Assembly: GCA_964036195.1 (NCBI GenBank)
Contig: OZ038454.1
Span: 27,452,315-27,516,314 of the forward strand
Source of the DNA: Sphaerolaimus hirsutus
Taxonomy: Eukaryota; Nematoda; Chromadorea; Monhysterida; Sphaerolaimidae
Reading direction: 5' to 3'
DNA: 64,000 nt
Below are positions 44,087 through 64,000 of the stretch, piece by piece. A model generated the notes under the pieces. It saw only the letters and a list, made by a program, of their open reading frames with translations, was not told the DNA's origin and did not search any database. The position numbers were made by a program, and so were the translations under genes. Position 1 is the first letter of the stretch. Each line of letters starts with the position of its first letter.

Positions 44087-44326
44087 GGTACACTGTGGCG
44101 GCTTTTTCAACGCGCTTGCATAAATCCCGTGAACACTAACAGATCAAAGGGAAATAGGTAGGCATGTAGAGGGAATCATGCCCAAGATTTACACGTGATA
44201 TTGTCTTTAGATTTTTGTCGGACGGCATCTTTGTGCGGGAGAATCTACCGTATCCCACCGGAATAGTGAGCCAAAAAGTTCAATATTTATTTACCATAAC
44301 ACATCGTTTTTGAAGGCATATTTTGG

Positions 44327-46007
44327 TGTAGGTAGAAATATGGCTAACTAATCATGCGTAAAAACGTAACGACAATTTTGCGCAGACACTCCGACGACTC
44401 GAGAACGACCATGTGCGACCGAATGACGACCCGCGGTGCACAGGGAAGTCACAGTGAACGTGCGGTTCGCTGTGCACTGCAAATCCGCCAACGAAGCCGC
44501 AGCCCCAGGACGGTACGCCCGAATGGACACTACTGCGGCCATGAATTTATTAATTGGTTCTTTTCCGTTAATTATTTAATTATTTCCCGTGTGACGCTAA
44601 TTTTTAATTTTTATTTTAGTGATTCATTAATTAAGCTAACTAGGTTACCCGCATTTTGAGTTAATTAAGTGAATACTTCCGTTTTTCTTTTGCATTTCCC
44701 AATATGTACTTTCGAGCGTTATAATTATTAGACTTTCATCAAGTTTACATTTTTGATTAAAAGGGTGCAGTGTCTGGGAATGGGTTAGAAAGACTTTAAT
44801 GTTTCTGGTTAAGCTAACAGGTGTTGACTCTGTTAAATGCTTAGACGCCCCGATAGATAACATTCAGAAAATTCCCCGACCAAGTGCTTTTTACTTAGGA
44901 CTAGGTAATGGGTGGAAAAGTGGCAAACGGCAATTATTGTCGGCATGCGACTGCAAGACACATGCAGAGCACAGTTTATAGTGAAGAGCACAGTAGTGCC
45001 AATTAATTATTCCCATCACCTAGGGTGATTGGTGAACTCACAAGTGCTAGTGTTTTGTGGCGTGTGTTTAGTCCCAAAGTTCCAACCCTTACCCGGCAAT
45101 GCAATAACCTTGAACAAACCCCGCAAATGAGCGTTCTTTCTATGGCCTTGGTCGGGCGCGCTATAAAAATATTTTTCACCTAAAGGGGCGCAGGTTGATA
45201 ACACGTGTCACACCACCTGCTCTAATTTGTACCGTAACCTCTGAATAGAACCCAGTTTACGACACTCACCTTTGAGATGAATTGCATTTTAATTACGTCA
45301 GTGATAACCACAGTTACTTTACGCTTGATTTAAATTACGTTTGCACCCGTTCGATTAATTAGTTATTTTTCCCGCATTGAATTAATTTACTTGTGCCTCG
45401 TACGCTATGTTTACGGTTTTCCAGTGATCATTGAATTTGCCTTATTAATTCGCTTATTACGGTTAATTGTTGTGTCTTTGATTTAGTATTCGTTTCGCTT
45501 ATGGTAGGTTTTTGGTGATTATAAAACGCGCTGATTTTACATTTTTTCACCCACTAGAGGCTATACGACTCACTTGAGCTATTGTGAAATTGACTCTGAC
45601 TACATCGCTAAAATAAAGTTTCCCGTGAACCCAACTTGGTCCCCCTGAAGCATACTAACTGCTTGAATTTTAATTTGAATTTTATTAATTTCGGCTTTGC
45701 ATTAATTACGGCTTTTAACAATTAATCGAAGTAAAACCGCTGGCAGCAGTTACGAAAGGGAGTGGTAAGTTGCCGTGTCCGTCCTCAGGAACTGTCAGGA
45801 CCCCAAGGGGTACTGGCGCCGTTCCTGATTTGCGTGTGAACATCCCCGTACCATAAAAACCAATTATTTATTTAATTAAGCACGCAAGTGGAAGCGCAAA
45901 GGGACCGGAATTTGCAATTCTCCGCCGCGGCAAAACTCGATGAGTGGCGTATTTTTGTGGTAAAAACGGAAAGTAGTAAAATTAGTAAAAACGTAAAATA
46001 TCTGACA
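44327..46007 (+). repeat. 5' LTR (1681 bp)
   Basis: Begins TGTAGGTAGAAATATGG and ends ATATCTGACA (TG...CA). By eye it differs from the 3' LTR by three transitions, a 3-bp GCG indel and one T in a homopolymer. A TATAAAA box at 45520-45526 and AATAAA at 45612-45617 suggest U3 of about 1.2 kb, a short R of under 100 bp and U5 of about 370 bp. A second TATAAAA lies at 45162. Confidence 0.96.
45520..45526 (+). promoter_or_regulatory. Candidate TATA box of the LTR promoter
   Basis: TATAAAA lies 86 bp before the only nearby AATAAA, a spacing that gives a compact R region. The same pair is kept in the 3' LTR (61386 and 61478). Confidence 0.55.
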
Positions 46008-46009
46008 AC

Positions 46010-46027
46010 TGGTAGCGTAGCGAGTGG
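46010..46027 (+). other. Candidate primer-binding site
   Basis: TGGTAGCGTAGCGAGTGG starts two bases after the LTR. TGG is the complement of the tRNA CCA end. The first seven bases match the usual initiator-Met site (TGGTAGC) and then diverge, so the tRNA is not assigned. Confidence 0.5.
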
Positions 46028-46122
46028 TTTCCTAAGCAAGCCATAAAGTTTTCTGTCTGGGGCGCCTGATCAACGCCTCTACAAAAAACGGCTTCACGGA
46101 TAACGAGTCACCCCAAAGGGAA

Positions 46123-49100
46123 TTGAGATCGAGGGGGCCAGCAAGCTTACAAGGGGACACCATAGAACAAGTTTGGCACGCTGCGTTGGAGAAGCAGAAA
46201 CAAGCACGAAGGCGCGCGCGACAACAGAAGGCTGGGCAAGAAGTGGACGCACAACTTGCTGCAGCTGAGAGTCAAGCAGGAGACAGTGAGTCGAACGATT
46301 CGGTTAACCCTGAAACAGAGGCGCCGGAAGCGCTAGAGGAGAGTGAAAGTCAACGCTGGTCTGGACAGACAGCTGAGGACACCCCGGTAATCAGGTTATC
46401 AACGGTTGAAGGTGCAGGGCCTGCGCCAGACAGTTTCAGTCAGTGGAAGACGCCAGCTGTACCGGCAGCGGCGCGGCAGTTAACGTCCAGCGCAGAAGCG
46501 GAAGAAGCGCCTGGGACAAGCAGACAAGCTGCAGGAAAGGAAGCAGGAAAGACAGGTAAGTGGTCTAAGCTTCGGAGGACACTGGGTTGGAGCGCGGGCA
46601 GCTCATCCATATCGCCTGGAGTGCGATCGGGTTCTGAAGTCGGTTCAGACGGATACGTTGGTGACAGCGAGCCTCTAGGGCAGCCGTCGATTCAACGTGA
46701 TTACCCTGTGATTGCAGCTGAGCTTGGAGCTACTGCAGATCAATTTCCCGTGATTGAAAATACCGTAGCGGAACTGTTGGAGACAGCGACGCAGAGTGGA
46801 GACACTTCCCCGGCGCTGCAGTTAAGCCCACCGAAGAGCACTTCGACGCCGAGAGACGTATCAGGTAACAGTAGCCGGAATTTATCGAGCGACCAGTCGA
46901 GATCGCAGAGCGCAACTGCAAAGGCTAGACGCCAGTTAATTAAGACTGAAATTTCAAATAATCCCCCCGTGATAATTATTAGCAGCCCCGCAAGCAGAAT
47001 GACAAACAACGGCGCGAACCAGACGGCGGCCCCGGCACTGGAAGACAGGTACGCAAAGGTCACTAATACGGACTTAATTTACCAAGCTACTATAATGGAC
47101 CTGGACCCGGTGCAAACAACGCCATCTTGTGCACAATGGACACCTAAAAAGGCATGTGCAGCGGCGAAGAAATGGGCAAACATGATGAGTCAAGCGAGAC
47201 CGGTTGGTGCTTTCTCACAGAATGGTGAACCAGGGGACTTGCGTATGGTGGCATTAATTAAAATTGCTATGAATTTATGGGGAAGTGACCCAGTCGCCGA
47301 GGTACCTAGGGTGGAACATTTTTTGCAGGAATTCGAAGCGCACCACAGTGTACATAGCGACGATATAGCTGACCTGACGACTGCGTACCAACAGCACAAT
47401 CAAGCCGTACAAAATCAGAATGCGACGCTGGGAGGAAATTCACCGGCTAGTGGCCAGCAGCCGATAGTGTTGACCAATGGTCAAGCAGCGCCCTTACAGT
47501 CATCAACGGCACCAGCGGCGCCCCCGTCGGCAGCTGGAACGAACCAGGTGAGAACTGTTACGCAGCGACGCGCTCGATCCCGTTCGCCAGCATCCTCCAG
47601 GAACTCGTCAGCTACATCGGAAGTGGCGTGGCCCACGGACCCGGGACAAAATTGGCAATTAGAGCAAAGTAATGCGGCAGTCATCACAGCCCTAGCACAG
47701 CAATGTGGATATTTTCGCGGCAAGCCAAATGAGGGTTTCAGGGACTGGAGAAGGAGCTGGGACACGGTATGTGATGCGCTGCGCATAAAGTTACAGGAGC
47801 GGAAGCCGCTGGTGAAATTGTTTCTGAAGGGCAGTGCCAGAGCCATTTTCAACACGCGGTACAGAGAATTGCGCGACCTGAACTACAAGGACATGATGCA
47901 GGCACTGGAAAAGTTCTATGAAAATCCGAATGACAAACATCATGCACAGAGAGAGATTTTTGAGACGCGACAGGGCGCAGATGAGTCGGTACTGGAATGG
48001 GCGGTACGTTTGGAAAAGTTGATAAAACGCGCCTATCCAGGCATGGGTCATGAAAAACGAGGTGACACGTGCATGATAAAATTTCATGGAGGACTGAGAA
48101 ATGAAATTCGGCGCAATGTACCTGTCACGGCGTCTATCACTTGGAAAGAGATGGTTGACAACGCACGCGCACAAGAGAGCTTTCTGGAAGCAGAACAGAG
48201 CCAGAATAAGGGAGAAAAATCCAAACAGGATGTGGTTGCCAGCGCCACAGACAAGGTAATGGACAGGTTGATGGCGCTAAACATGCCCGCCATGGCTGGA
48301 CTGCCGTCCCAGGCCGACAAGACGTTAGAAACAATGGAACAGAAAATGACTGAGAGTGTTGCCAAATTCGACTCTGTGCACCAAGAGATAGCGAAGAAAT
48401 TAGCGCAGCTGGGCGCGTTGGAAGGTAAACTTTTGGGATTGAATAGGGACCCCCCTAAATTGCCCCCACGAAAATTTGACAAAGGATGCTGGGAATGTGG
48501 CTCTGAAGAGCATATCAGATATGAGTGCCCCAAACTAACCCCAGAACAGAGGGAACAGTATTTCAAAAGGAGCCGCGGCGGCGGAGCATCCAGAGGAAAT
48601 GGACGTGGGCGCGGCGGAGGACAACGTGGTGGCTATCAGGGGAATAATCAAGCCCAAGCGATGCAGCCAGGTATGGTGCCCATGCAATACGCATATCCGC
48701 AGTGGCAACCAGCGCAGCCGATGCCTGTACAACCAGCGCAGACGGTACAGAGGGCTGGCGATATGAACATGCAACCGCAAATGATGGCTTATCAAACGCC
48801 GCCAGCTAACTGGATGGCTATGGGACCAGATGGGCGCATGCAACAATATAACATGCAACCGGTACCGGTAAGTAACCCACACGTAGAGTCGCTGAACCCC
48901 ACGCGAGTGTCCAGTACGACTGGTATGACCATGCATGTGCGCGAAGATGATCGCTGCATGATGATACGTCCCGTTAATAAATTAATCCCTGTGATGCAAG
49001 GCCTGGAATTAGAGGATGAGGAACCTGACGAACTGGTCCCAGAGTCACCCGAAGAGCAGCAGCGCACTACTGGAATGCATGTGCTCGCGCAGGAGCGGGA

Positions 49101-52100
49101 ATTCTGGATCAAACCATGGGCATACATGCGAACTGAAAAAGGTTACCTGTTTCGAACTACTTGGCTGGCCTTTCTACGCAGGATTGGAATGCATGATTTG
49201 AGAGAAACGGACTGTACGTTGTGGCCTAATTGCCCTGCAGACGACCACTCGGACACGTTGACTGAGGTGCCCTTGGATGTACTCATGAACATCAGCCTGG
49301 ACCCGTTTTTGTACGCCACGCCGGCCGCCCTGCCGCCACGTACTGGCTCCAGCAACCAGGTAGACAGGTATATGGGTTTTCTGTCTACTGAGGAAGGGGT
49401 GCGCCCCGCGCCGCGCGCATATTCAGAACCCCCCTACATGCCTCAGGTCGCACAGTCGCTGTTTTTCGTATTGGCAGTTGGGTTAATTATAATGGGATTA
49501 GCCTTTTTGCCGGGCGCGGGCGCGACTACCATGCCCTCGTTTCCACTGCTCTGCAGCGATTTGACAGATCACTACGATTTATACACGTACCCCCCTCTAC
49601 CCAATTGCACGGCTATTGTTGACACCACGGCGTCATTAGAACGGCCACGAAAATTGACACTGACAATCTACAAGCGAAATATGGTAGAATATCGTGCGGC
49701 AGCACACAGGTGTGTGGCCTCGATTCGAACGGCAAAGACGTATCAGAACTTCTGGGGCGACGTCACGCTGGAAAAGTTTGATTCTAACCCCCGATCTGTG
49801 GGCGCCGCCGAGTGCGAAGGCATGATTAAATATCACAAGTGCAACAATGGGCCCATGACCCCTGTGAGTGATTTGGACAACGCATGGGACACCCAGTACC
49901 CCACCAATGTTAGCTACTCAGGACATGGATTATACTGTTGCAAATGGGTGAGTGAAACGACGCCACACTGTGGGCTGTTTCGAGGGGAAGTACGAATGAG
50001 ATATGGAGCCAACACCATGCAAAGCACGCTGGGTGAGGTTAGCAAGTGCAATTATGAATTGGGTGCATGCACGCTAGAAGACGGCAGCCAATTAACTTGG
50101 AAGCCGAACCCGAAGGCGGAATGCCCTTATGAAAAATGGCGTGAAATGCATGGACGCATTAGACAGGACATCTGGCTAGCTGATGATCATACACTATCAC
50201 TGTCCTTCAGAGCACATGAAGAGGTTGAATCATGCGGCATTAAATTATGGAAATCGGACCAGGATATTGTAGTGGCGCCATTTGCGAAGGCAGTGATTCG
50301 AAGCGTCAGACAAAAACGAGCGCAAGGTCGACCCACGCTGGGAATAGTGAGCGCAGGCCAATTAGCAGCCAGCATGCAGGCGGTATACGAAACAGCAGAA
50401 CAACCCATGCGCGCGCAGGCCGTAGCCACCTGCAAGAATGTGCAACACTTCCAGGAATTTGTGCGCCTGGCTATGAGCGAACATGCAACTACGACAGCCC
50501 GATGGTACATGAATGATAACGAAATAATTGCCAAACCCGCGCCGGACGGATTTCTGGTTCACAAATGTTTTGCGGTAAAAACATACGAGATCATGAAAGA
50601 GGAGAAGTCTCCAGAATGCTACGAAACAGTACCTGTGCAAGTTAGCGTACACGGGCAGAATGTGACGTTGCACATGAATAGGTTGACAAACATTTTGCAT
50701 TTTCAAGCGATCCCGGGCTCATGCACCAATGCGCACAATCGTGTGGTAATGTTAAATGGACAATGGTACAAATATCTACCGGAAGTCGGCGGCCTGGAAC
50801 ATTTGCCTATGTATAACACCCACAGTTTTCCGCAGAAATGGCAGCAGGAAAAAGTCAGGGATGTGCATCATCAGATTTTTGCCGCCACGACTATGTACAA
50901 CTTGTCAGAATTATTGCCGACGACCACCCTGAATGACGTATGGCACGCGTATTCTATCGTGCGGCAAATCACGCAGGGGGCGGAGCCGAGAGTGGAATCA
51001 CACATGCAAAGACATCGAACTTTGGCAAAATCAGTATTAGCGCTGGGATGGTGGGATTTTGACACCTGGCGCACCTGGCTACAAGTATGGATCTATCTGA
51101 TATGTGCACTGGTCACCATGCAGTATTTACTAGCCGCGCTCATGGCTGCAGCGCCGGAAACGGCCGTGACTTTGGTGAACAGGGCAAAGGAAAAAATCAA
51201 AAGGCGACCAAAGACAGAAGAAAAGTCCAATATCATTGTCGAATTGGCTGAGGACCGCCCTAGCGAACAGGTAAAGGTAAGAACGGTAATTAACCCGTGC
51301 GTGGGAATGCCAAGTGGCATGCCCGCACTCACGGGCGCGCGTCGTTTTCCCGCTATACAATACAGTATCAACAGAAAATGCGATCTGGAAGAAGAATCGG
51401 TGTGCATGATCACTTTCTCGACGGAAGAAAGAGACAACATCCATCAAGTAGCCAATCGACGTGAAGAGATTGTGCATGTGTACTACAGCCCATCCATTAC
51501 CATAACCATTGATGGGAGAGAATATCGAAGATGTCTACTGGACACAGGCGCCATGCGTTCATTATGCAACAGAGACGTGCTGATGCGACACAAGGAAAAG
51601 GCTACTAAGCATGATGAAGTTTCACCTATTGGAGCCCTTAGGTGTGCAGCAGACTCGAAACTTTTGGTATTGGGACAAATGGAAGTACCGGTAACCATGG
51701 GAAACCACACCTTCGGGATTGTGTTTCAGGCAGTGAACGGATTAGCTGGTGAAATTCTAATTGGTGCAGATGTCTTACGGCACATGGTAGTGGACCTACC
51801 TGCAAGGGAATTACGAATCCCTACGGCTAATGCGATCATTCCCTTTGATAACCCAGACCCGGAAGTGCAGCAGCGCAGGATTTACGCTATTGTGAATGAA
51901 AAAATAGAAATTCTGGCTAGACATGAAGCGCTAGTGACCGCAAAATTATCTGCCCCCATGGACGAAAGGTTATTTACGGTCATGGGATTGGATACGGTAG
52001 GTGAACGTTGTGGCGTTATGGCTGCGTCAGCGGCCTATGAAACTAGTGCCCCTGTGTTTCAGGTGAGATGTGCAAATGTACGAAACCAGCCCGTAGTGCT

Positions 52101-52719
52101 ACAGGTAGGACAGCGCATTGCAGTGGTCGAACCAGTGGATTGCGTGCTGAAGGTGAAACCTGGAGACCCTCCCGCTGAATGGGTGAAGCAGTGCTATGAC
52201 AGAGATGTGTGTCGACAGGTTCAAGCAACTGAACCTCCCCCCAAGGTAGCCGAAGACAAATTAGGACCTCCACTGCAAGTTGCATGTCCAGATGGACACG
52301 TGATGGAATTTACCGTGCCAGAAACATTGACGGACGAACGCAGAGAGGAACTGAAAAAGGTGATTTTGCAGTACAAAGAAGCTTTTGCCCGACACAAGTA
52401 TGACATCGGCTACAGCGAATTAGTGGACTACCGGTTGCAATTGGTGGACAAAAAGCCAATTGCCTGCAGAATGTACCGGTTGAGTCTGGATGATCAGCAA
52501 TACTTAGAAAATCATTTGAGATGCCTCATCGAGCATGATATCGTGGAACCCAGTACGAGCCCGTATTGTGCCCCCACGCTGGTGGTATCCAAACCGGATG
52601 GATCAAAGCGGATGGTAATCGATTACAGACGCCTGAACGCTGTTTTGCACGCTCCCCAATTCCCATTACCCCGCTTAGATGAAACAGTCGAATCTTTATG
52701 TAGCTGCAAGTATTTTTAG
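46123..52719 (+). CDS. Retroelement ORF1: Gag, Env-like glycoprotein, protease, N-terminal RT
   Basis: Open from 46036; the first ATG is only at 46999, so the stretch before it is translated from a non-AUG codon (residues here are counted from TTG at 46123) or from a spliced leader. In order: charged, possibly coiled N terminus; capsid-like Gag domain about 509-691; CCHC knuckle C789-X2-C-X4-H-X4-C802 and an Arg/Gly-rich tail; a hydrophobic segment 1113-1130; a large cysteine-rich ectodomain with several N-X-S/T sites; a furin-type RQKR at 1396-1399; a second hydrophobic segment about 1655-1675; aspartic protease with LLDTGAMRS (D1807) and ILIGAD; then RT from about 2100 to the TAG at 52717. 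Retroviral-type polyproteins normally have Env after Pol. A consensus donor CAG|GTAAGT lies at 46556. The frame continues one base over in the next ORF. Confidence 0.9.
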   Translation: MRSRGPASLQGDTIEQVWHAALEKQKQARRRARQQKAGQEVDAQLAAAESQAGDSESNDSVNPETEAPEALEESESQRWSGQTAEDTPVIRLSTVEGAGPAPDSFSQWKTPAVPAAARQLTSSAEAEEAPGTSRQAAGKEAGKTGKWSKLRRTLGWSAGSSSISPGVRSGSEVGSDGYVGDSEPLGQPSIQRDYPVIAAELGATADQFPVIENTVAELLETATQSGDTSPALQLSPPKSTSTPRDVSGNSSRNLSSDQSRSQSATAKARRQLIKTEISNNPPVIIISSPASRMTNNGANQTAAPALEDRYAKVTNTDLIYQATIMDLDPVQTTPSCAQWTPKKACAAAKKWANMMSQARPVGAFSQNGEPGDLRMVALIKIAMNLWGSDPVAEVPRVEHFLQEFEAHHSVHSDDIADLTTAYQQHNQAVQNQNATLGGNSPASGQQPIVLTNGQAAPLQSSTAPAAPPSAAGTNQVRTVTQRRARSRSPASSRNSSATSEVAWPTDPGQNWQLEQSNAAVITALAQQCGYFRGKPNEGFRDWRRSWDTVCDALRIKLQERKPLVKLFLKGSARAIFNTRYRELRDLNYKDMMQALEKFYENPNDKHHAQREIFETRQGADESVLEWAVRLEKLIKRAYPGMGHEKRGDTCMIKFHGGLRNEIRRNVPVTASITWKEMVDNARAQESFLEAEQSQNKGEKSKQDVVASATDKVMDRLMALNMPAMAGLPSQADKTLETMEQKMTESVAKFDSVHQEIAKKLAQLGALEGKLLGLNRDPPKLPPRKFDKGCWECGSEEHIRYECPKLTPEQREQYFKRSRGGGASRGNGRGRGGGQRGGYQGNNQAQAMQPGMVPMQYAYPQWQPAQPMPVQPAQTVQRAGDMNMQPQMMAYQTPPANWMAMGPDGRMQQYNMQPVPVSNPHVESLNPTRVSSTTGMTMHVREDDRCMMIRPVNKLIPVMQGLELEDEEPDELVPESPEEQQRTTGMHVLAQEREFWIKPWAYMRTEKGYLFRTTWLAFLRRIGMHDLRETDCTLWPNCPADDHSDTLTEVPLDVLMNISLDPFLYATPAALPPRTGSSNQVDRYMGFLSTEEGVRPAPRAYSEPPYMPQVAQSLFFVLAVGLIIMGLAFLPGAGATTMPSFPLLCSDLTDHYDLYTYPPLPNCTAIVDTTASLERPRKLTLTIYKRNMVEYRAAAHRCVASIRTAKTYQNFWGDVTLEKFDSNPRSVGAAECEGMIKYHKCNNGPMTPVSDLDNAWDTQYPTNVSYSGHGLYCCKWVSETTPHCGLFRGEVRMRYGANTMQSTLGEVSKCNYELGACTLEDGSQLTWKPNPKAECPYEKWREMHGRIRQDIWLADDHTLSLSFRAHEEVESCGIKLWKSDQDIVVAPFAKAVIRSVRQKRAQGRPTLGIVSAGQLAASMQAVYETAEQPMRAQAVATCKNVQHFQEFVRLAMSEHATTTARWYMNDNEIIAKPAPDGFLVHKCFAVKTYEIMKEEKSPECYETVPVQVSVHGQNVTLHMNRLTNILHFQAIPGSCTNAHNRVVMLNGQWYKYLPEVGGLEHLPMYNTHSFPQKWQQEKVRDVHHQIFAATTMYNLSELLPTTTLNDVWHAYSIVRQITQGAEPRVESHMQRHRTLAKSVLALGWWDFDTWRTWLQVWIYLICALVTMQYLLAALMAAAPETAVTLVNRAKEKIKRRPKTEEKSNIIVELAEDRPSEQVKVRTVINPCVGMPSGMPALTGARRFPAIQYSINRKCDLEEESVCMITFSTEERDNIHQVANRREEIVHVYYSPSITITIDGREYRRCLLDTGAMRSLCNRDVLMRHKEKATKHDEVSPIGALRCAADSKLLVLGQMEVPVTMGNHTFGIVFQAVNGLAGEILIGADVLRHMVVDLPARELRIPTANAIIPFDNPDPEVQQRRIYAIVNEKIEILARHEALVTAKLSAPMDERLFTVMGLDTVGERCGVMAASAAYETSAPVFQVRCANVRNQPVVLQVGQRIAVVEPVDCVLKVKPGDPPAEWVKQCYDRDVCRQVQATEPPPKVAEDKLGPPLQVACPDGHVMEFTVPETLTDERREELKKVILQYKEAFARHKYDIGYSELVDYRLQLVDKKPIACRMYRLSLDDQQYLENHLRCLIEHDIVEPSTSPYCAPTLVVSKPDGSKRMVIDYRRLNAVLHAPQFPLPRLDETVESLCSCKYF
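49400..51180 (+). other. Envelope-like membrane glycoprotein region inside ORF1
   Basis: Amino-terminal hydrophobic segment (FFVLAVGLIIMGLAFL), then about 520 residues with paired cysteines, N-glycosylation sequons (NCT, NVS, NVT, NLS), the dibasic RQKR followed by a small-residue-rich stretch, and a C-terminal membrane anchor (VWIYLICALVTMQYLLAALM). This is the layout of a class I or III viral fusion glycoprotein that is cleaved by furin and sits in membranes. The family is not assigned. A resemblance to glycoproteins captured by other invertebrate retroelements is inference only. Confidence 0.7.
52713..52719 (+). other. Frame change in RT: T5 run and UUU-UAG shifty stop
   Basis: ORF1 reads TAT TTT TAG here; RT continues in the +1 frame from the next base. 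The P-site UUU could re-pair one base forward because of the five T. It may equally be a one-base insertion in the genome or a homopolymer error. It lies between RT fingers and the first palm aspartate. Confidence 0.8.
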
Positions 52720-52720
52720 C

Positions 52721-55426
52721 AGTGCTGACATAAATCAAGCTTTCTATAACATTGCTTTGCATCCAGATGATCGACACATCACGTCATTCAGAAATGTTTT
52801 TGGACAATTTCAACTGAAACGTTTACCCATGGGATTAAAATGCTCACCTAGTTTAGCGCAGCGCTGTTTTGAATTAGCCATGGCCGGTTTAATACATAGA
52901 AATGTGCTACTATACATCGACGATTTACTAATTTATAGTGCAACCTGGGAAACCCATTTATATGACATAGGACAGGTGTTGGAAAGATTAATTAGGAATA
53001 ATTTCAAAATTAGTCCGAAAAAGTGTTTTTTCGCACGCGTCACAGCTGTACGCTTTCTAGGATTTATGATTGGTCGTGACGGCGTGTGCGTACCAGATGA
53101 TAAACGGCACATTATTCAGGACTGGCCGGTACCCACTACCGTAAAAGAGGTAAAGGGATTTCTGGGAGCTATCGGTTTTTTCAGACGCATGATTCACAGA
53201 TGCGCAGAGCTAGCTGTACCCTTGTCAAATCTCACGCGTACGGGACCAAGAGAAAATTACAATAGCGACACCCCGGTGGATTTGACATCGAAACCCAAGG
53301 CACTGGAAGCTTTCCATAAGCTCAAGGAAGCATTATTAGGAAGCCCATGTCTGCAGTTTCCCGATCCCAAACGAATGTTTATAATTATCACGGATGCCTC
53401 TAAAATTGCTGTTGCAGGCGTGTTAGCACAACGAGCAGAGGACGAGAAAATACTACATGCATGCGCCTTTTACAGCCGGAAGTTAGGAGCAACCCAAAGC
53501 AAATGGCCAGCGATTTCCCTGGAAGCGTGTGCAATCTACGAAAGCATACGTAACTGGCATTGTTATCTGGCGGGACGGCCCTTTGAAGTCTGGACTGACG
53601 CCAAGAGTATTTCGTGGGTAAAGAATCCTAATTTAGAGACTACCCCGCACGCCATGCTGCACAAGTTCGCTTTAGCAATTACGCCGTACCAAATCACGTT
53701 CAAGCATTTGCGGGGAAAAAGCAACGAATTAGCAGATGCATTATCCAGAAGGCAAGACGCACCAGTGGTATTCGACGAGAAAAAGGACCTGGACGAGGCC
53801 TTTGAGCAGTTCGCACAAGTTACGTGCCGTGAAATCGCTATCCCGCACGATAGGCAGGTTACGGTAGCTGCGGCAAGCAGGACAGCGTACCAGCCAATCA
53901 GCGTAAACGAGGAGACGGAGTTACTGCGACCAATCAGCGACCGGACGCGCGGGCGAAAAGAGGCGGAGTCACCCGGGCTGCGAGAGCGGCAGCGGAATGC
54001 GGAAGCGCCTGGAACCGGAACAATGGCTGGTGGTTCAGGAGCCGGAAATGAAGTTGTTCCGGGTTTGACGAGTGCAACTAAGCGCAGTACAATCATGGCA
54101 CTACCTCCAATGACTTCGGTTGACAAATTGAAGCGACTACAAGCAGAAGAACCATACATAGCTACAACTATAGAAGTGTGTCGCGCAGATAATTTTTACA
54201 GCGCCGCGCCGTATTTTATTGACCAATACGGTTTATTACGTCGCCAAGCGGGAACGTCCCAGATACCAGGTATACAATTATATGACCCCGTATGTATTCC
54301 ATCGGAATTAGTTCCATTCGTGTTAGAATTAGCTCACAATCACCCTACGGCGGGCCATTTAGGAATAATAAAAACATTCGAAAGGTTGCAGGAATTCGCG
54401 TGGTTTCCAGGAATGCGGCCAGAAAGTGCGCGCTGGGTTGCCACCTGCCCTTCGTGCAACGCCAAGAAAGGTCTCAGAGCGGCAATGCGAACTCAAATGG
54501 TGTGCCGCCAGGTAGCCAAAAGGCCAGGTGATGTGATAGCGGTAGACGCAATAGGACCTTTACTAACCACGAAACGCAGAAACCGACATGTGTTAGTATT
54601 TGTTGATCAGTGCACGCGTTTTGGAATTGCTGTGCCCGTTCCCGACATAAAACAAGACACAGTATCATTTGCATTTCTGTTGCACATTTTGCCCATATTT
54701 AGTGTGCCGGCCATTATACTCAGTGATAACGCCCCTAGCTTTACCGAGGGCACTTTTGCCAAGCTTCTACAATATTTGAACGCGACCCAACATACATCAT
54801 TTGCGTACACCCCCAAGAGCAACGGAATGGTGGAACGTAGGAATGGTGTTCTGATGGAAATAGTATCACACTACGTAAATCGTACACATGACGATTGGGA
54901 CATACATTTAGGCGCCGCTGTACACGCGTACAATACATCGAAACACCCTTCCTTGCAAACCACCCCCTATGCGTTGCTATTTGGCAAGCCTGCTGCGTCC
55001 ATGTGGGAGCGAATGATCGAGCCTCCCCCTGACAACGAGGCATTGCCCTCATTGCCGCATAAGCGCGCTCTTATAAATGAATTAGGCGCGCGTCTGACCA
55101 CAGCACGCGAAGCAGCGCATACCGCTTTAGCAAAGGCGCAGCAAAAGGAGCAATTTTACGCCAATCGCCGCGCGCGCCGATTGAATGTGCAACGCGGGCA
55201 AGCGGTACGCGTATACACGCCGCGTATTACTCAGTTGACGGGCCCCAGTAAGAAATTCGCGCCTCGCTTTATCGGCCCGTATGAGTGCATTGATTATGCC
55301 CACCCATTAGTGACTTTATTCAACAATATTAATAAGAAAATTTATGTAGTTCATGCAGATCGTTGCAAGGCAACCAGTGAATATTTAATCCCCCCTTCTT
55401 ACAGTGAATTATACGGCGACGACTAA
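52721..55426 (+). CDS. Retroelement ORF2: RT, RNase H, integrase (pol, +1 frame)
   Basis: Frame open from before 52679, but homology starts right after the shift. Palm motif with SADINQAF, then LPMGLKCSP and the catalytic YIDD (52913-52924). RNase H: ITDAS (D at 53393), SLEACAIYE, WTDAKS and ADALSR. Integrase: H-H-C-C zinc module (HNHPTAGH ... CPSC, 54330-54457), catalytic D in VDAIGPL (54547), D in ILSDNAPSF (54724) and E in GMVERRNG (54831). C-terminal GPY/F module (FAPRFIGPYECI, about 55256-55291), typical of Ty3/Gypsy. Ends TAA at 55426. All catalytic residues are present, so apart from the frame change the enzyme set looks intact. A reverse transcriptase and integrase would act in cytoplasmic particles and the nucleus respectively. 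Confidence 0.92.
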   Translation, partial: SADINQAFYNIALHPDDRHITSFRNVFGQFQLKRLPMGLKCSPSLAQRCFELAMAGLIHRNVLLYIDDLLIYSATWETHLYDIGQVLERLIRNNFKISPKKCFFARVTAVRFLGFMIGRDGVCVPDDKRHIIQDWPVPTTVKEVKGFLGAIGFFRRMIHRCAELAVPLSNLTRTGPRENYNSDTPVDLTSKPKALEAFHKLKEALLGSPCLQFPDPKRMFIIITDASKIAVAGVLAQRAEDEKILHACAFYSRKLGATQSKWPAISLEACAIYESIRNWHCYLAGRPFEVWTDAKSISWVKNPNLETTPHAMLHKFALAITPYQITFKHLRGKSNELADALSRRQDAPVVFDEKKDLDEAFEQFAQVTCREIAIPHDRQVTVAAASRTAYQPISVNEETELLRPISDRTRGRKEAESPGLRERQRNAEAPGTGTMAGGSGAGNEVVPGLTSATKRSTIMALPPMTSVDKLKRLQAEEPYIATTIEVCRADNFYSAAPYFIDQYGLLRRQAGTSQIPGIQLYDPVCIPSELVPFVLELAHNHPTAGHLGIIKTFERLQEFAWFPGMRPESARWVATCPSCNAKKGLRAAMRTQMVCRQVAKRPGDVIAVDAIGPLLTTKRRNRHVLVFVDQCTRFGIAVPVPDIKQDTVSFAFLLHILPIFSVPAIILSDNAPSFTEGTFAKLLQYLNATQHTSFAYTPKSNGMVERRNGVLMEIVSHYVNRTHDDWDIHLGAAVHAYNTSKHPSLQTTPYALLFGKPAASMWERMIEPPPDNEALPSLPHKRALINELGARLTTAREAAHTALAKAQQKEQFYANRRARRLNVQRGQAVRVYTPRITQLTGPSKKFAPRFIGPYECIDYAHPLVTLFNNINKKIYVVHADRCKATSEYLIPPSYSELYGDD

Positions 55427-55636
55427 AATTGATTAATTGGCCGTTACGATCATCGCCGTCGCGTCAAACAGCACGAAGCCAGGTACAACAGGTATGAAGT
55501 GTGTGTGAGGTGTGTGTGTGTTTTTAGGAAGCTCGTGCACCCCTTTTGCCCACGGGCAACTGGACCGCACGAGTTCTTATTACTTTCCCCGTTCACAAAA
55601 CTTCGCAATTAATTATTTTATCACATTATAATTATA

Positions 55637-58600
55637 ATGGCTTCGGCCTCTCGCAAACGCCCATTTGAAGGTGCAGACGCCCCGCCCATTAAATCCAAGG
55701 AGACAAATACACATGGTGCCTGCGGCGGCGGAACCATTCCCCCGCGACAACTCTACCGCGCGCAGCAGATGCAAAATGGACCGGAAATCTACCCCAGCAG
55801 AGGGAAATTCGAAGGTTGGGTAGATAGGGTGTATATTGACTCGGGCGCCGACGGGCATGTTGAGTATCAGTGCCATGTGAGAATTTCTGAGCAGACGATG
55901 GCGATACTCAGCGAAAACGAGCAGTGGGTGAATGCGGATGAGGCTTATCCGTATTTTTATTATTCGAATAAGCGGGCCAAGGCGGCTAGGGACAAACGGA
56001 CCACCCAGCTGGTGGATTTGTGCGCAAGAATTCAGAAACAACACCCCTCGATGTTCCTGCCCCTAGTGCGCCACGGGATGCGTTTCTCGGCGACCGCAAT
56101 CGCACAAAAAATAGAAAATCCCCGGTACTGGGAGTTTACCGGTGTCGCGATATGGGGTAATCAGACAAAGTGCCCCTTAAACGTTGCCGCCCCCGTGGTC
56201 GTGAGTACGCAGGGCACGCGGCGCGTCACTCAAGCGGCACGTACATTGACGCGCGGCGACACTTCCGGCTACCAGCCCTACACGAGCGACTGGAAAACAG
56301 CGCGGCTGCGAGCGGCCTTCACGCCGTCGAATTACAAGAATCTGGAACCGCTGGGCGCGGCGGAGCGAGGTGATGCCGGGCCGGAAAAGTTGGTCATTTT
56401 GCACAGAGAGTATGTGAGTGACAGCAGAGTGGAAAATTTGAGTGCTGGGCAGTTGGGGCTGGCCCACGTCGAATATCACGACCTAAACGATTTGGGCGTG
56501 TTCGGCGACGAATTCTACGGCCATGCGTACGGGCTGCAGGTCGCCACGGCCGAGGATATCAGCACATCGGGCATCCAGCCAGACACAGAGAACAGAGACA
56601 ACATGGACTCGTTTCTCAGGTATAAATTGGGCATTTTAGCAGCGGCTCACTGCTATAACGAGTCATTTTTGCGATTTCGGGCGAAACGCGCGACGGACGT
56701 GTGCGCGCATGTGTCCTGGGAGCACACGCCGCAGGGCACTGCATGCGATATTATGGTGCGCCGCCCGGACCCAGAAGAGTTGCAAGCTGACACTTTCGAA
56801 GGACCAGAAGAGCAGCGCGTGCGTTTGCTGGAGCAGGTGAACACGCAGACACAGCTGCTGAACCAGGCGACGCCCATGTCGGTGTTGAGCTTGGTGCTGG
56901 CCAGACCGGACGAAGACAAACCAGCGGCGGGCAGCCCCAATCTATCAGTTAGAATTACCAGCGTGGAATCAGAGCCAACCACTACAAGGCTGCGTGCGAA
57001 GTTGGACATGGCGGCGTCGCAATCAGCGCTGCCCCGAACCCTGGAGAGTGGAAGATACATGGTGCGCGGCTCGAACGACTCGCCCAATTACGACCGAACC
57101 ATGCGATCACTGCAAGCCGCCCTGAACAAAGCGCCGGTCGGCTGGGTGCCAAAAGTGGTCCAGGGGTCAAAAGTACTCACCCTGGAGGCGCAAATCCAAT
57201 TAGCTGTGATATTGAATTTGCGTCTGCTGGATGACGAAACTGACTGGGCGCTCATTAGCCGCGAGGCTACTGAGTTGTACGAATCATTGTTCAGAGGAAA
57301 AAACGAACAAATGATTCAGGCCAAATTAGGTGAGTTTTTGCCGCAGCAGGGGCAGGTAGAAGTTTTAGGAGCTGTGATCACAGCCGTGCGAATGCGCAAA
57401 CCCCTTTTGATTATGTGTGACTCGCCTTTCGGGTCCGGGAAGACGACCACACAAAATCAACTGGCGTATGTGTGCTCACGCGGCTATAACTATTATAACT
57501 CGAGACCCAGGGTGCGCGCGGGCTCCGACTTGCCATCGGACAAGCAGCCGAACGCCAAATATCATTCGACGCTCATCACGTGCACGGTCAACTCGGCGGC
57601 CGACGAAGGCGCGCGCAGGGCCCTGACCAACCTGAATAAATTAGGGCAGCGGGATATTTTTGGGGCTTTAGAAGTTTTATTACGGGAACGCGCGAAATGG
57701 ACCGCCATGGCTGATACGCCATTTTCTGAAATGCAAAAACTGGAGGGTTTTGAAGAATTTTTGAAATTAAGAGCGGCATTTCCGGTGCGCGTTTTGAGTC
57801 CCATGTGGGAAACTGACCCCACTTATAACACCACCCCCGCGACCCAATTGCCAACCCTGCACACCCTAGCACAGCGAACCGGCCACAACATCGTCCGCCT
57901 CAGCCCCGAATGGACGGCAGCGCTGGAAAAGTACGACGGCGCCAAGAAGGACTACGAACTGGTGGACGAAATCATTAACAACTGCACGGACGACGCCGTC
58001 ATACGCGCGCAGCTGACCGAACAAGTGCCATTTCTCACCGCCGACGATGGAGACGAGCAGCCATTCGATGACTTCGAGGCAGGCGTGGCGGGCGCCCGGG
58101 CTGGTGAGGCTAGTTTAGCTGATCAGGGATTTTGGGGTAAGGTGCTGCGTAGGGCGCTGTCTAAATATGTCAGGGCTACGGTCAGGCTGCACCGGGTGTT
58201 CTTGGAGGTGGTGCAGCCCGGTCAAATCCATGTCACTTTGGACTCCGCCCACGACGCCCGTATAAAAAGTGTGACTGCGTGCGCGGTAATTATTGACGAA
58301 GCGTCTTTGGCGTCTGACGCTGCAGTAATTAGCGTGGCTCAGGCGGCTCAGCTCCCAGTGAACGGCATGTTGCTTCTATTTGGAGACAGTAAACAATTGA
58401 CGCGTATGATTCGCGTGCAAGACTGGGTGGAGCCTGTCCTGAAACCCGACCCCACCCTCATTGATAGGCTCACACAGTACCAACTATGTCCCGTGGTTCA
58501 CTTGGAAACAGTGTTCCGCGGGCATCGCCAGCTCATTCAGGCCAACTCCGTGGCGGCGTACAATGGACTGCTACGCGCCTACAACGACACTGCAGCGCAC

Positions 58601-59608
58601 GGCGCCACCATGTTGCCCGCGCCTGGCGACTTCGAGGATGGCGTCATGCTGTCATCGACGCTGGTGCACCAGGGCTGCGAATCGAAAGAAGGCATGTCCA
58701 TAATCAACAAAAAGGAGCTGCGCATCATCCTGCACCTGTACGACTACCTCGTGGCCACAGTGAAAGAAGATCCCACCCTGCCCTGGGCAGATCTTACAGA
58801 TCCCGCTAGTTTGCTAATTGTCTGTTTTTATGCGGCGCAGGCGCGCGCCCTAATCAGTCGACTAGTAGCCCATACAGAACACGACGCGGCTTACTGGGCC
58901 ACCCGCGTGATCACTGCCGACAAGGCACAGGCCCGTGAAGCGGAAGTGGTCATCGTTTCCTGCGTGCGCGGCAGCCCGCCTACCGACTCCGCCCAGCTGG
59001 ATGCCGATCCCAAGAAGGCGTACGGTAGAGTTGGATTTGTAGCGGAGTTGCCCCGGGGAAACGTAGCCACCTCCCGCGCCAAATGTGTGCGCATCGTGGT
59101 GGCCAACGCCGAGACCATGTTGTGGTCAACCTTTTTCCACCGGTTTCTGACGGTCGAGCACAAAGCCGACCGGATTTACTCTTACGAGTCAGGCCAAATT
59201 TGGGGAAACGTGTTGGGATTTTGGCCTCCGGAATGGCGCCCGCGGGCCGACTTGAAAGAACTAGTCGGACCGGACAGATACCCGGCCCTCGAAGAAGAAC
59301 TGCAGGCGGAATGTTTGTCTGACATTGAAACCGCCACAGCGGGCTCTGACTCCTCCGCAGACGCGCGGGAGGAGGGTGTGCCGGTGTTGGAGGAAGTGGT
59401 GCCCGTTGTCGAACCAGTTTACCGCCCTAATGAAGAATATTCCCCCATTAGCAACGACATGGCGGCCATGGCACTGCAGAACGTAGCCGAGCCCCCCTCG
59501 CCGCCGCCCGAGCACCACGACGCGGTCGAGGCCATCCCACTGCCACCGGAGGAAGCTCCAGCGCAACAGGTAGAACACCACATGGAAAATGGTAATTGTG
59601 AAAATTGA
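55637..59608 (+). CDS. Retroelement ORF3: UPF1-like superfamily 1 helicase (1323 aa)
   Basis: Starts at ATG 55637, 211 bp after pol. About 590 N-terminal residues are unrecognised. Then the SF1 set: motif I SPFGSGKTTT (K602), motif II VIIDEAS (D887-E888), motif III LLFGDSKQL (D917), motif IV-like VFRGHRQL, motif V TADKAQAREAEVVIVSC (Q1098), motif VI GNVATSRAK (R1147). Motifs V and VI closely follow UPF1/NAM7-type helicases (DxFQGrExDxIILS; NVALTRA). All catalytic residues are present, so ATP-dependent RNA or DNA unwinding is likely. The C terminus is acidic, Pro/Glu rich. It is in the same orientation as pol and presumably needs its own spliced or internal transcript. Codon use is GC-rich like the rest of the element. 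Confidence 0.88.
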   Translation: MASASRKRPFEGADAPPIKSKETNTHGACGGGTIPPRQLYRAQQMQNGPEIYPSRGKFEGWVDRVYIDSGADGHVEYQCHVRISEQTMAILSENEQWVNADEAYPYFYYSNKRAKAARDKRTTQLVDLCARIQKQHPSMFLPLVRHGMRFSATAIAQKIENPRYWEFTGVAIWGNQTKCPLNVAAPVVVSTQGTRRVTQAARTLTRGDTSGYQPYTSDWKTARLRAAFTPSNYKNLEPLGAAERGDAGPEKLVILHREYVSDSRVENLSAGQLGLAHVEYHDLNDLGVFGDEFYGHAYGLQVATAEDISTSGIQPDTENRDNMDSFLRYKLGILAAAHCYNESFLRFRAKRATDVCAHVSWEHTPQGTACDIMVRRPDPEELQADTFEGPEEQRVRLLEQVNTQTQLLNQATPMSVLSLVLARPDEDKPAAGSPNLSVRITSVESEPTTTRLRAKLDMAASQSALPRTLESGRYMVRGSNDSPNYDRTMRSLQAALNKAPVGWVPKVVQGSKVLTLEAQIQLAVILNLRLLDDETDWALISREATELYESLFRGKNEQMIQAKLGEFLPQQGQVEVLGAVITAVRMRKPLLIMCDSPFGSGKTTTQNQLAYVCSRGYNYYNSRPRVRAGSDLPSDKQPNAKYHSTLITCTVNSAADEGARRALTNLNKLGQRDIFGALEVLLRERAKWTAMADTPFSEMQKLEGFEEFLKLRAAFPVRVLSPMWETDPTYNTTPATQLPTLHTLAQRTGHNIVRLSPEWTAALEKYDGAKKDYELVDEIINNCTDDAVIRAQLTEQVPFLTADDGDEQPFDDFEAGVAGARAGEASLADQGFWGKVLRRALSKYVRATVRLHRVFLEVVQPGQIHVTLDSAHDARIKSVTACAVIIDEASLASDAAVISVAQAAQLPVNGMLLLFGDSKQLTRMIRVQDWVEPVLKPDPTLIDRLTQYQLCPVVHLETVFRGHRQLIQANSVAAYNGLLRAYNDTAAHGATMLPAPGDFEDGVMLSSTLVHQGCESKEGMSIINKKELRIILHLYDYLVATVKEDPTLPWADLTDPASLLIVCFYAAQARALISRLVAHTEHDAAYWATRVITADKAQAREAEVVIVSCVRGSPPTDSAQLDADPKKAYGRVGFVAELPRGNVATSRAKCVRIVVANAETMLWSTFFHRFLTVEHKADRIYSYESGQIWGNVLGFWPPEWRPRADLKELVGPDRYPALEEELQAECLSDIETATAGSDSSADAREEGVPVLEEVVPVVEPVYRPNEEYSPISNDMAAMALQNVAEPPSPPPEHHDAVEAIPLPPEEAPAQQVEHHMENGNCEN

Positions 59609-59738
59609 TACGAAACAATTTTTGTCAAAAAACCAGTTATCAAAGTCTCAATGTAATAATTCATGCACAACTTTTTGTCATCAGGAGAAACAGACAACTC
59701 TGTAATAAAAAATAGTCAGCAAACAAAAAACATACTTG

Positions 59739-60098
59739 TTAATATTCCATGAAAACAACTAGAAAATCTTGTCGACGATCAATTTTCACACGCACGGACT
59801 GCGACATGTCGGTCGAGCAGGTAATTTGAATGTTGATCCCAAACTGCCCATCCAACAGTGGCACGATGCTGTGAAATAATACAGATTAGTAGTCTGATTA
59901 ATTAGTATCCAAAATCAAAAAAGAAAAAACTTTTTCTCACATCGAGCCCTGAGCGGGAACCAAAATTTCGAAGTTTCGAGCACAAAAAGCCGGCACGGCA
60001 GAAAGCTGATGCCATAATTCAAATGAAGACGAGCCATATTTGCACCCCCAGGGCATGTGACTGCCACAGCCGTCCACCGAAAAATGCAGAGAAGGCAT
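59739..60098 (-). CDS. Possible two-exon antisense gene inside the retroelement (95 aa)
   Basis: On the minus strand ATG at 60098 opens exon 1 (60098-59941), ending at a good donor (AT|GTGAGA). A 72-bp intron ends TTTCACAG, and exon 2 (59868-59739) ends TAA. Phase is kept and the product is 95 residues, with FSVDGCGSHMPWGCKYG early, NFEILVPAQGS at the junction and VPLLDGQFGINIQIT after it; it looks like a beta-rich fold. It is not recognised. It may be an accessory gene, a captured host fragment, or the 3' part of a longer antisense transcript. There is no homology support. Confidence 0.45.
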
Positions 60099-60174
60099 GA
60101 TTTTTGAATAATCAAAAAACGGCGCAAAACACTTTTTCTGAACATGTCGTTTTTAGCCCGGAGGTAAAAAATTA

Positions 60175-60188
60175 ATGGCTGGTGGGAT
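60175..60188 (+). other. Candidate polypurine tract, weak
   Basis: ATGGCTGGTGGGAT directly precedes the 3' LTR. It is purine-rich but not a clean tract; the position, more than the sequence, suggests it. Confidence 0.3.
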
Positions 60189-61873
60189 TGTAGGTAGAAA
60201 TATGGCTAACTAATCATGCGTAAAAACGTAACGACAATTTTGCGCAGACACTCCGACGACTCGAGAACGACCATGTGCGACCGAATGACGACCCGCGGTG
60301 CACAGGGAAGTCACAGTGAACGTGCGGCGGTTCGCTGTGCACTGCAAATCCGCCAACGAAGCCGCAGCCCCAGGACGGTACGCCCGAATGGACACTACTG
60401 CGGCCATGAATTTATTAATTGGTTCTTTTCCGTTAATTATTTAATTATTTCCCGTGTGACGCTAATTTTTAATTTTTATTTTAGTGATTCATTAATTAAG
60501 CTAACTAGGTTACCCGCATTTTGAGTTAATTAAGTGAATACTTCCGTTTTTTCTTTTGCATTTCCCAATATGTACTTTCGAGCGTTATAATTATTAGACT
60601 TTCATCAAGTTTACATTTTTGATTAAAAGGGTGCAGTGTCTGGGAATGGGTTAGAAAGACTTTAATGTTTCTGGTTAAGCTAACAGGTGTTGACTCTGTT
60701 AAATGCTTAGACGCCCCGATAGATAACATTCAGAAAATTCCCCGACCAAGTGCTTTTTACTTAGGACTAGGTAATGGGTGGAAAAGTGGCAAACGGCAAT
60801 TATTGTCGGCATGCGACTGCAAGACACATGCAGAGCACAGTTTATAGTGAAGAGCACAGTAGTGCCAATTAATTATTCCCATCACCTAGGGTGATTGGTG
60901 AACTCACAAGTGCTAGTGTTTTGTGGCGTGTGTTTAGTCCCAAAGTTCCAACCCTTACCCGGCAATGCAATAACCTTGAACAAACCCCGCAAATGAGCGT
61001 TCTTTCTATGGCCTTGGTCGGGCGCGCTATAAAAATATTTTTCACCTAAAGGGGCGCAGGTTGATAACACGTGTCACACCACCTGCTCTAATTTGTACCG
61101 TAACCTCTGAATAGAACCCAGTTTACGACACTCACCTTTGAGATGAATTGCATTTTAATTACGTCAGTGATAACCACAGTTACTTTACGCTTGATTTAAA
61201 TTACGTTTGCACCCGTTCGATTAATTAGTTATTTTTCCCGCATTGAATTAATTTACTTGTGCCTCGTACGCTATGTTTGCGGTTTTCCAGTGATCATTGA
61301 ATTTGCCTTATTAATTCGCTTATTACGGTTAATTGTTGTGTCTTTGATTTAGTATTCGTTTCGCTTATGGTAGGTTTTTGGTGATTATAAAACGCGCTGA
61401 TTTTACATTTTTTCACCCACTAGAGGCTATACGACTCACTTGAGCTATTGTGAAATTGACTCTGACTACATCGCTAAAATAAAGTTTCCCGTGAACCCAA
61501 CTTGGTCCCCCTGAAGCATACTAACTGCTTGAATTCTAATTTGAATTTTATTAATTTCGGCTTTGCATTAATTACGGCTTTTAACAATTAATCGAAGTAA
61601 AACCGCTGGCAGCAGTTACGAAAGGGAGTGGTAAGTTGCCGTGTCCGTCCTCAGGAACTGTCAGGACCCCAAGGGGTACTGGCGCCGTTCCTGATTTGCG
61701 TGTGAACATCCCCGTACCATAAAAACCAATTATTTATTTAATTAAGCACGCAAGTGGAAGCGCAAAGGGACCGGAATTTGCAATTCTCCGCCGCGGCAAA
61801 ACTCGACGAGTGGCGTATTTTTGTGGTAAAAACGGAAAGTAGTAAAATTAGTAAAAACGTAAAATATCTGACA
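60189..61873 (+). repeat. 3' LTR (1685 bp)
   Basis: Near-identical to 44327-46007, with TATAAAA at 61386 and AATAAA at 61478. Its 3' end lies 81 bp before a Cdc25 splice acceptor, so LTR promoter or polyadenylation activity could affect that gene. Confidence 0.96.
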
Positions 61874-61954
61874 GTGTCTAGCATGTGAAGTGGTCTGGCC
61901 TCCATTTACATTTGTGAATCAATAACCGTTAACCGAATCCTGTCCCAATTGCAG

Positions 61955-63938: not shown

Positions 63939-64000
63939 NNNNNNNNNNNNNNNNNNNNNNNNNNNNNNNNNNNNNNNNNNNNNNNNNNNNNNNNNNNNNN
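63939..64000. other. Assembly gap
   Basis: Run of N to the end of the window. Confidence 1.

Follow-up and report, generated by a model that had tools for sequence, protein, structure and literature searches.

A window of 64,000 nt from the genome of the nematode Sphaerolaimus hirsutus (the whole stretch of DNA that was analysed, C6:27452315-27516314 of a 348-Mb assembly in 762 contigs) contains a 17.5-kb long terminal repeat (LTR) element at 44327-61873. Read 5' to 3', its genes encode Gag, a predicted class III-type envelope glycoprotein (Env), an aspartic protease (PR), reverse transcriptase (RT), RNase H (RH) and integrase (IN), followed by a UPF1-like helicase in a separate open reading frame (ORF). 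The element probably belongs to a multi-copy, endogenous retrovirus-like Ty3/Gypsy family with this genome plan, for which we infer the modes of expression and the roles of the helicase proposed below, and by the look of its LTRs the family has been recently active. An earlier note on this DNA had drawn the same gene order and a rearranged retrovirus-like lineage, and both are borne out by motifs, profiles and the recurrence of Env and helicase at the same places in other copies. The features of the element, all on the plus strand, are as follows.

44327..46007, +, 5' LTR of 1,681 bp, with TATAAA at 45162 and AATAAA at 45612
45764..45770, +, splice-donor-like GGTAAGT within the LTR, with further ones at 46555 and 48867
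46010..46027, +, candidate primer-binding site, TGG two bases past the LTR, extent inferred
46123..52719, +, ORF1, Gag-Env-PR-RT (N-terminal part), 2,198 codons from TTG inside a 2,227-codon open frame
47812..48051, +, Gag domain, PF03732 at 25.7 bits (cut-off 24.1)
48487..48528, +, one CCHC zinc-knuckle motif, Pfam zf-CCHC at 15.4 bits, below cut-off
49438..51200 (ends approximate), +, Env-like class III-type fusion glycoprotein by sequence, with a signal peptide after an internal ATG, an ectodomain and a transmembrane (TM) segment at about 51076-51156
50308..50319, +, furin-type RQKR site in Env, amino acids 1396-1399
51499..51771, +, putative aspartic protease, LDTGA at 51538, Pfam Asp_protease_2 weak (E 0.073)
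52679..55426, +, ORF2, RT (C-terminal part), RNase H and integrase
52711..52720, +, candidate +1 slip site TATTTTTAGC at the ORF1 stop, read as UUU UAG C
55521..55527, +, splice-acceptor-like TTTTTAG, the ORF3 ATG being the next ATG
55637..59608, +, ORF3, UPF1-like superfamily 1 (SF1) helicase of 1,323 amino acids, AAA_12 at 58454-59110
60189..61873, +, 3' LTR of 1,685 bp

The backbone of the element is of the Ty3/Gypsy (Metaviridae) kind. PR, RT, RH and IN stand in the order of that family with Ty3-type RT and RH, PR being recognised by its motif and a weak profile match, and both LTRs start with TG and finish with CA. Target-site duplications (TSDs) of 4 bp (CATG, ATAA, CAAA and TTGA) flank four of four other copies checked, and none flanks the window copy; the range in Metaviridae is 4-6 bp. 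The assignments of zinc knuckle and PR are made by motif and position, their profiles being below cut-off, and are best read as putative. The best match of ORF2 in the PDB is Ty3 Gag-Pol (E 2.8e-56), and its alignment with Ty3 RT (4ol8) starts at residue 146, from which it follows that RT is divided, with the N-terminal part in ORF1 and the remainder in ORF2, in different frames. This corrects one detail of the order, RT not being whole in ORF2. An exact search for a tRNA-like pattern that would match the primer site gave 0 matches; a likeness of that site to initiator tRNA was considered and dropped.

The strongest evidence for a genome plan of this kind is that it recurs. As the earlier note had proposed, the host genome was searched for further full-length copies; all counts given here refer to the best-scoring candidates only. 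The best 50 of 2,271 Pol candidates are 99-100% identical (48/50 without an internal stop), the best 35 of 613 helicase candidates are all full length, 99-100% identical and free of stops, and the best 68 of 1,237 Env candidates are 98-100% identical (64/68 without a stop). Of the 68 Env copies, 56 sit in an open frame of 2,216 codons or more, including four in which the search read through a single stop inside Env. The AAA_12 profile (PF13087) gave, among the best 150 of 454 candidates, 148 matches at a uniform 89.7-97.8 bits that cover nearly the whole profile and were taken as copies of the element, with a frame of 1,280 codons or more around 102 of them; the other two are presumably exons of an apparent host UPF1 gene. 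For 63/68 Env copies a helicase match lies no more than 1.5 kb from where it is expected (61 at 9,118-9,166 bp), and for 43/68 a Pol copy from the 50 listed stands at an offset of 3,343 or 3,340. Because it recurs genome-wide in this way, the order Gag-Env-PR-Pol-helicase is far beyond chance.

The LTRs agree with this picture. When the opening 1,000 bases of the LTR served as query, the best 40 of 637 candidates comprised 33 matches that make 17 pairs spaced 15,862-15,886 bp apart, two of which share an LTR, and seven without a partner among the matches listed. All 17 pairs bracket both an Env and a helicase match. Scores are equal within 14/17 pairs, which suggests identical LTRs without proving identity. 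At C6:7566655-7599402 three consecutive LTRs, with an Env and a helicase match in each interval, make two tandem copies that share one LTR.

Coding constraint was estimated from single-base codon differences between copies. Env gave 12 nonsynonymous and 83 synonymous differences in 12 copies (pN/pS 0.041), the helicase 15 and 82 in 12 copies (0.057) and Pol 2 and 70 in seven copies (0.008), with codons of two or more changes left out (four helicase, two Env) and the nonsynonymous count lowered by an unknown amount in these best protein matches. For Pol, seven of eight fetched copies were compared, the eighth being dropped as it runs into the end of a contig. With that caution about sampling, Env and helicase look constrained like working genes.

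Several lines of sequence evidence suggest for Env a fusogen of class III type, akin to glycoprotein B (gB) and the chuvirus glycoproteins. The Env segment scanned alone matches PF24664 (Monjiviricetes_fusion) at 30 bits, above the cut-off of 27, and the whole of ORF1 gives 26.1 bits, just under it. In 12/12 Env copies read, both the RQKR site and the stretch of the signal peptide are kept. When aligned to three further Env families of this genome, Env shows 18-21% identity and 11 invariant cysteines, and the profile of these four families matches 49 PDB sequences at E<=1 (best 1.7e-9), of which 45 are named glycoprotein B; the remaining four, with the gene names ORF8, BALF4 or GP110, are presumably gB as well. 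The other Env families outscore this Env on both PF24664 and the gB profile. The alignment of the four Envs was also compared with 5.8 billion proteins, in a search that requires shared 5-residue words and similar lengths, and none of the 7,457 candidates scored reached E<=0.001. Viral contigs scanned with Env and with the helicase yielded no relatives of either.

ORF3 encodes a helicase of cellular rather than viral affinity. It matches AAA_12 (E 8.1e-25) and reaches 49.9 bits with NCBIfam TIGR00376 (the IGHMBP2 family), below that family's own cut-off, and its PDB matches are a "5'-3' RNA helicase-like protein" (2.4e-6), which we take to be of the Sen1/senataxin type, then UPF1 (0.01), NAM7 and SMUBP-2. 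The strings GSGKT, VIIDEAS, GDSKQL, FRGHRQL and NVATSRA, all presumably SF1 motifs, occur together in 12/12 helicase copies, and the UPF1-like assignment follows from SF1 motifs I, II, III and VI and a UPF1-like second RecA domain. The earlier note had called the helicase RNA-virus-like, which is not supported: Viral_helicase1 matches ORF3 at E 0.058 (13.6 bits, cut-off 21) and no viral PDB chain appears at E<=1, and on these grounds a viral origin was rejected. No Pfam or NCBIfam family reaches E<=0.1 over the N-terminal 560 residues. The helicase core (amino acids 560-1180) found no relative at E<=0.001 among 7,996 candidates scored in the same 5.8 billion proteins.

The window element is not the only Env-bearing LTR family of this genome. 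In a genome scan with PF24664 the best 68 of 1,557 candidates are all over the cut-off, and none lies within 3 kb of the 68 Env copies of this element; for 14/68 the frame exceeds 4,000 codons. The longest, a single frame of 6,806 codons, belongs to a distant Ty3/Gypsy family, here called family B (C1:17074600-17092900, minus strand; L045, L046, L057), in which Env (L057) is followed by PR, RT, RNase H and integrase in the same frame, these stretches having been read separately. Its RT-RH is 29% identical to that of the window element over 347 amino acids, and about 2,680 codons read upstream of its Env hold no convincing domain, about 1,570 codons further upstream being unread. A related family, C (L058), has its Env tail in common with family B (score 88, reached by 0/2,000 shuffles). 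The Env tail of the window element against that of family B is unconvincing, 87/2,000 shuffles reaching the score, and a single origin of the Env-first order is therefore not shown. At one further locus (L033) a family-C-like Env occupies two frames around a stretch that encodes ENGNGNG repeats and KRKRK-like residues.

BEL/Pao-type elements (L034-L044, L047, L048), several of them near-identical copies, have a single frame of about 2,900 codons in which Pol is followed by an Env of class III type. L047 is the one copy whose Pol domains were identified, and L036 comprises a Pol tail and Env in one frame. Peptidase_A17, DUF1759 and DUF5641 are typical of BEL/Pao Pol and are all present in L047, whereas none was matched in the ORFs of the window element, which sets it apart from Belpaoviridae. 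The RT tree that the earlier note had asked for was built from 60 of 120 listed matches (mostly unnamed) and three sequences of this genome. It places the window element among Ty3/Gypsy-type Pol proteins, the nearest at about 31% identity, and resolves no sister group.

The element shares with Ty3/Gypsy elements in general the PR-RT-RH-IN order, the TG..CA LTRs and a short TSD, and differs from them in an Env before PR, a helicase ORF, a frame-split RT and a length of 17.5 kb. Elements of the Errantivirus or Dingle type have env after integrase and Retroviridae have it after pol, whereas here Env precedes PR and a helicase follows IN. Dingle, a Ty3/Gypsy element of Dimorphilus gyrociliatus, has a herpesvirus gB-like envelope downstream of integrase (PMC7854359); the window element likewise combines Ty3/Gypsy with a gB-like Env, placed before PR. 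Anakin, a mosquito element with a chuvirus glycoprotein (PMC7642597), resembles it in the capture of a chuvirus-type glycoprotein and differs in its BEL/Pao backbone. Bdelloid rotifer LTR elements also carry captured enzymatic or env-like ORFs, namely an esterase, an exonuclease or a paramyxovirus-F-like protein, in their case after pol (PMC5408684). Jingchuvirales glycoprotein insertions are described in arthropods and nematodes (PMC10084718), the hookworm Atlas virus has a phlebovirus-like envelope (PMC9094657) and Troyka is described as having no envelope (PMC12440569).

With regard to the helicase, viral SF1 helicases are known from insect LINE and Ty1/Copia ORFs, where they form part of LINE proteins or are joined to the RNase H or integrase of Copia (PMC5563155, PMC6338049), whereas that of the window element is UPF1-like and has an ORF to itself within a complete LTR element. 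Another Gypsy/Ty3 element with an extra protein is Cer1 of C. elegans, in which that protein is encoded after pol and made from a spliced RNA; it is the RNA-export factor CERV, and the word "helicase" occurs 0 times in the article (PMC10309623). Searches of open-licence PMC text, a scope that leaves out subscription papers, most preprints and repeat databases, yielded neither an LTR element whose Env stands between Gag and PR nor one that carries a UPF1-like helicase ORF. A Ty3/Gypsy element with a gB-like Env after integrase is already in print; the gene order and the helicase of the window element are unusual.

A mechanism can be proposed that makes use of these features. Genomic RNA would be translated into a Gag-Env-PR-RT(N) polyprotein, in which the internal signal peptide would thread the Env ectodomain into the lumen of the endoplasmic reticulum and the TM anchor would return the chain to the cytosol before PR; the capsid-glycoprotein polyprotein of the alphavirus type serves as a model. 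At UUU-UAG within RT a minority of ribosomes would slip, the UUU in the P site moving +1 onto UUU, so that decoding continues in the ORF2 frame, both parts of RT come to lie in one chain and RT-RH-IN is made. The slip site TATTTTTAGC is kept in 20/20 loci read, which represent 16 distinct copies, and nearby codons carry synonymous changes. The class III-type Env would let enveloped particles enter cells, and ORF3 would be translated from a spliced mRNA. The helicase most likely assists in remodelling or copying an RNA of nearly 16 kb or shields it from surveillance, the latter being suggested by its UPF1 affinity and by an early stop with a very long 3' region after ORF1. The article on Cer1 remarks that retroviruses in which a stop separates gag from pol have to evade nonsense-mediated decay (PMC10309623). 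We tentatively propose, at rather less than even confidence, a lineage that makes a class III Env inside its Gag-Pol polyprotein, meters Pol by a +1 slip in RT and uses its own UPF1-family helicase to remodel or shield a long RNA.

A number of observations weigh against the proposed mechanism and the genome plan. The first 292 codons of ORF1 (46123-46998) are open and contain no ATG, and translation would have to begin at a non-AUG codon or with the help of a spliced leader. TTTTTAGG stands just upstream of ORF3 in 8/12 copies and the exact string is missing from 4/12. Acceptor-like sites are common, with 16 in the coding body at a stricter setting that the 55527 site itself fails, and splice-like strings are accordingly signals and no proof of splicing. 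The window copy has no TSD (flanks 44300-44326 and 61874-61900 compared), and its LTRs, which differ by three substitutions and two indels, are one of the 3/17 pairs with unequal scores; recombination between two copies is the likeliest cause, the window copy being probably a recombinant, and the three LTRs in a row described above indicate that exchange between copies happens. Five of the 68 Env copies lack a helicase at the expected offset, one having a match at 13,783 bp and four none within 25 kb. The use of best-scoring candidates also biases nonsynonymous and stop counts downward.

Further points of this kind concern Env and the deeper history of the plan. Compared with the PDB by itself, the Env of this element finds no gB and just seven CD44 chains at E ~0.5, which is chance level, so that the match to gB depends on the three further Env families. 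Pairwise Env scores against the window element are 135 for the BEL/Pao-type elements, 98 for family C and 64 for family B (0/500 shuffles each), and the RT node that unites the window element with family B has a support of 0.125. The Env-first order may be old with later exchange of Env, or may have arisen more than once. In family B no AAA_12 was found among the matches listed near the frame or in the pieces read, and a longer frame of this kind indicates that a long RNA alone does not demand a helicase.

The most serious alternative, which we consider credible and on balance doubtful, is that Env and helicase are expressed from spliced mRNAs only, Env being no working part of a polyprotein or being spliced out for Gag-PR-RT. 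An ATG stands directly before the Env signal peptide and acceptor-like sites lie upstream at 49181 and 49240, which together with the donor-like GGTAAGT at 45764, 46555 and 48867 and the acceptor-like site at 55527 could serve such mRNAs; Env would then be made from a spliced mRNA that starts at the ATG at 49438. The spliced mRNA for the extra protein of Cer1 is a precedent in another nematode element (PMC10309623). Against this alternative, the frame runs on from Gag through Env to PR and RT, with 56 Env copies in the long frames counted above (four of them with one stop inside Env), that of family B runs through 6,806 codons, and the Env-PR interval at 51100-51600 contains no acceptor-like site even at a looser setting.

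It is also conceivable, and in our view unlikely, that the element is an intracellular retrotransposon that captured Env for a role other than entry, such as membrane targeting, and whose helicase antagonises silencing or nonsense-mediated decay. Spread within one genome does not need infection, and SF1 helicases borne by transposons have been proposed as silencing suppressors (PMC5563155, PMC6338049). Here a helicase of UPF1-like affinity accompanies an ORF1 stop that lies 8-9 kb before the inferred end of the RNA. Against this, Env retains a signal peptide, a furin-type site, a TM segment and the 11 cysteines common with the three other Env families, as a working fusogen would.

That the helicase ORF is a hitch-hiking copy of a host gene with no function for the element is very improbable. 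Its cellular UPF1-like type, its separate ORF and the absence, among the proteins scored, of a homologue that would show long association could be so understood, but the 148 uniform helicase matches, 102 of them in long frames, do not fit, and 15 nonsynonymous against 82 synonymous differences make a neutral passenger unlikely even in copies biased as best matches. Furthermore, ORF3 is 28% identical to a host UPF1-like exon over 96 amino acids and is thus no recent copy of that gene. A chimera or misassembly, in which a Gypsy element, an inserted Env gene and an adjacent host helicase were joined, would explain the missing TSD and the LTR differences of the window copy and has next to no likelihood, being rejected because the order recurs in other copies, with the helicase in place for 63/68 Env copies, both genes inside 17/17 LTR pairs and TSDs at 4/4 other copies, and because recombination between copies would account for the TSD missing here.

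The gag-pol-env plan taught for retroviruses and env-bearing LTR elements is not fixed, as two Gypsy families of this genome have Env before PR, and this raises the question of whether a fusogen can be made as part of a Gag-Pol polyprotein. An LTR element that carries a UPF1-family helicase would likewise offer a test of how retroelements handle nonsense-mediated decay or the copying of very long RNA. Outside the element, the window ends in 62 N (63939-64000), and a short repeat array on the minus strand at 13161-13589 encodes YGNDDG-type units.

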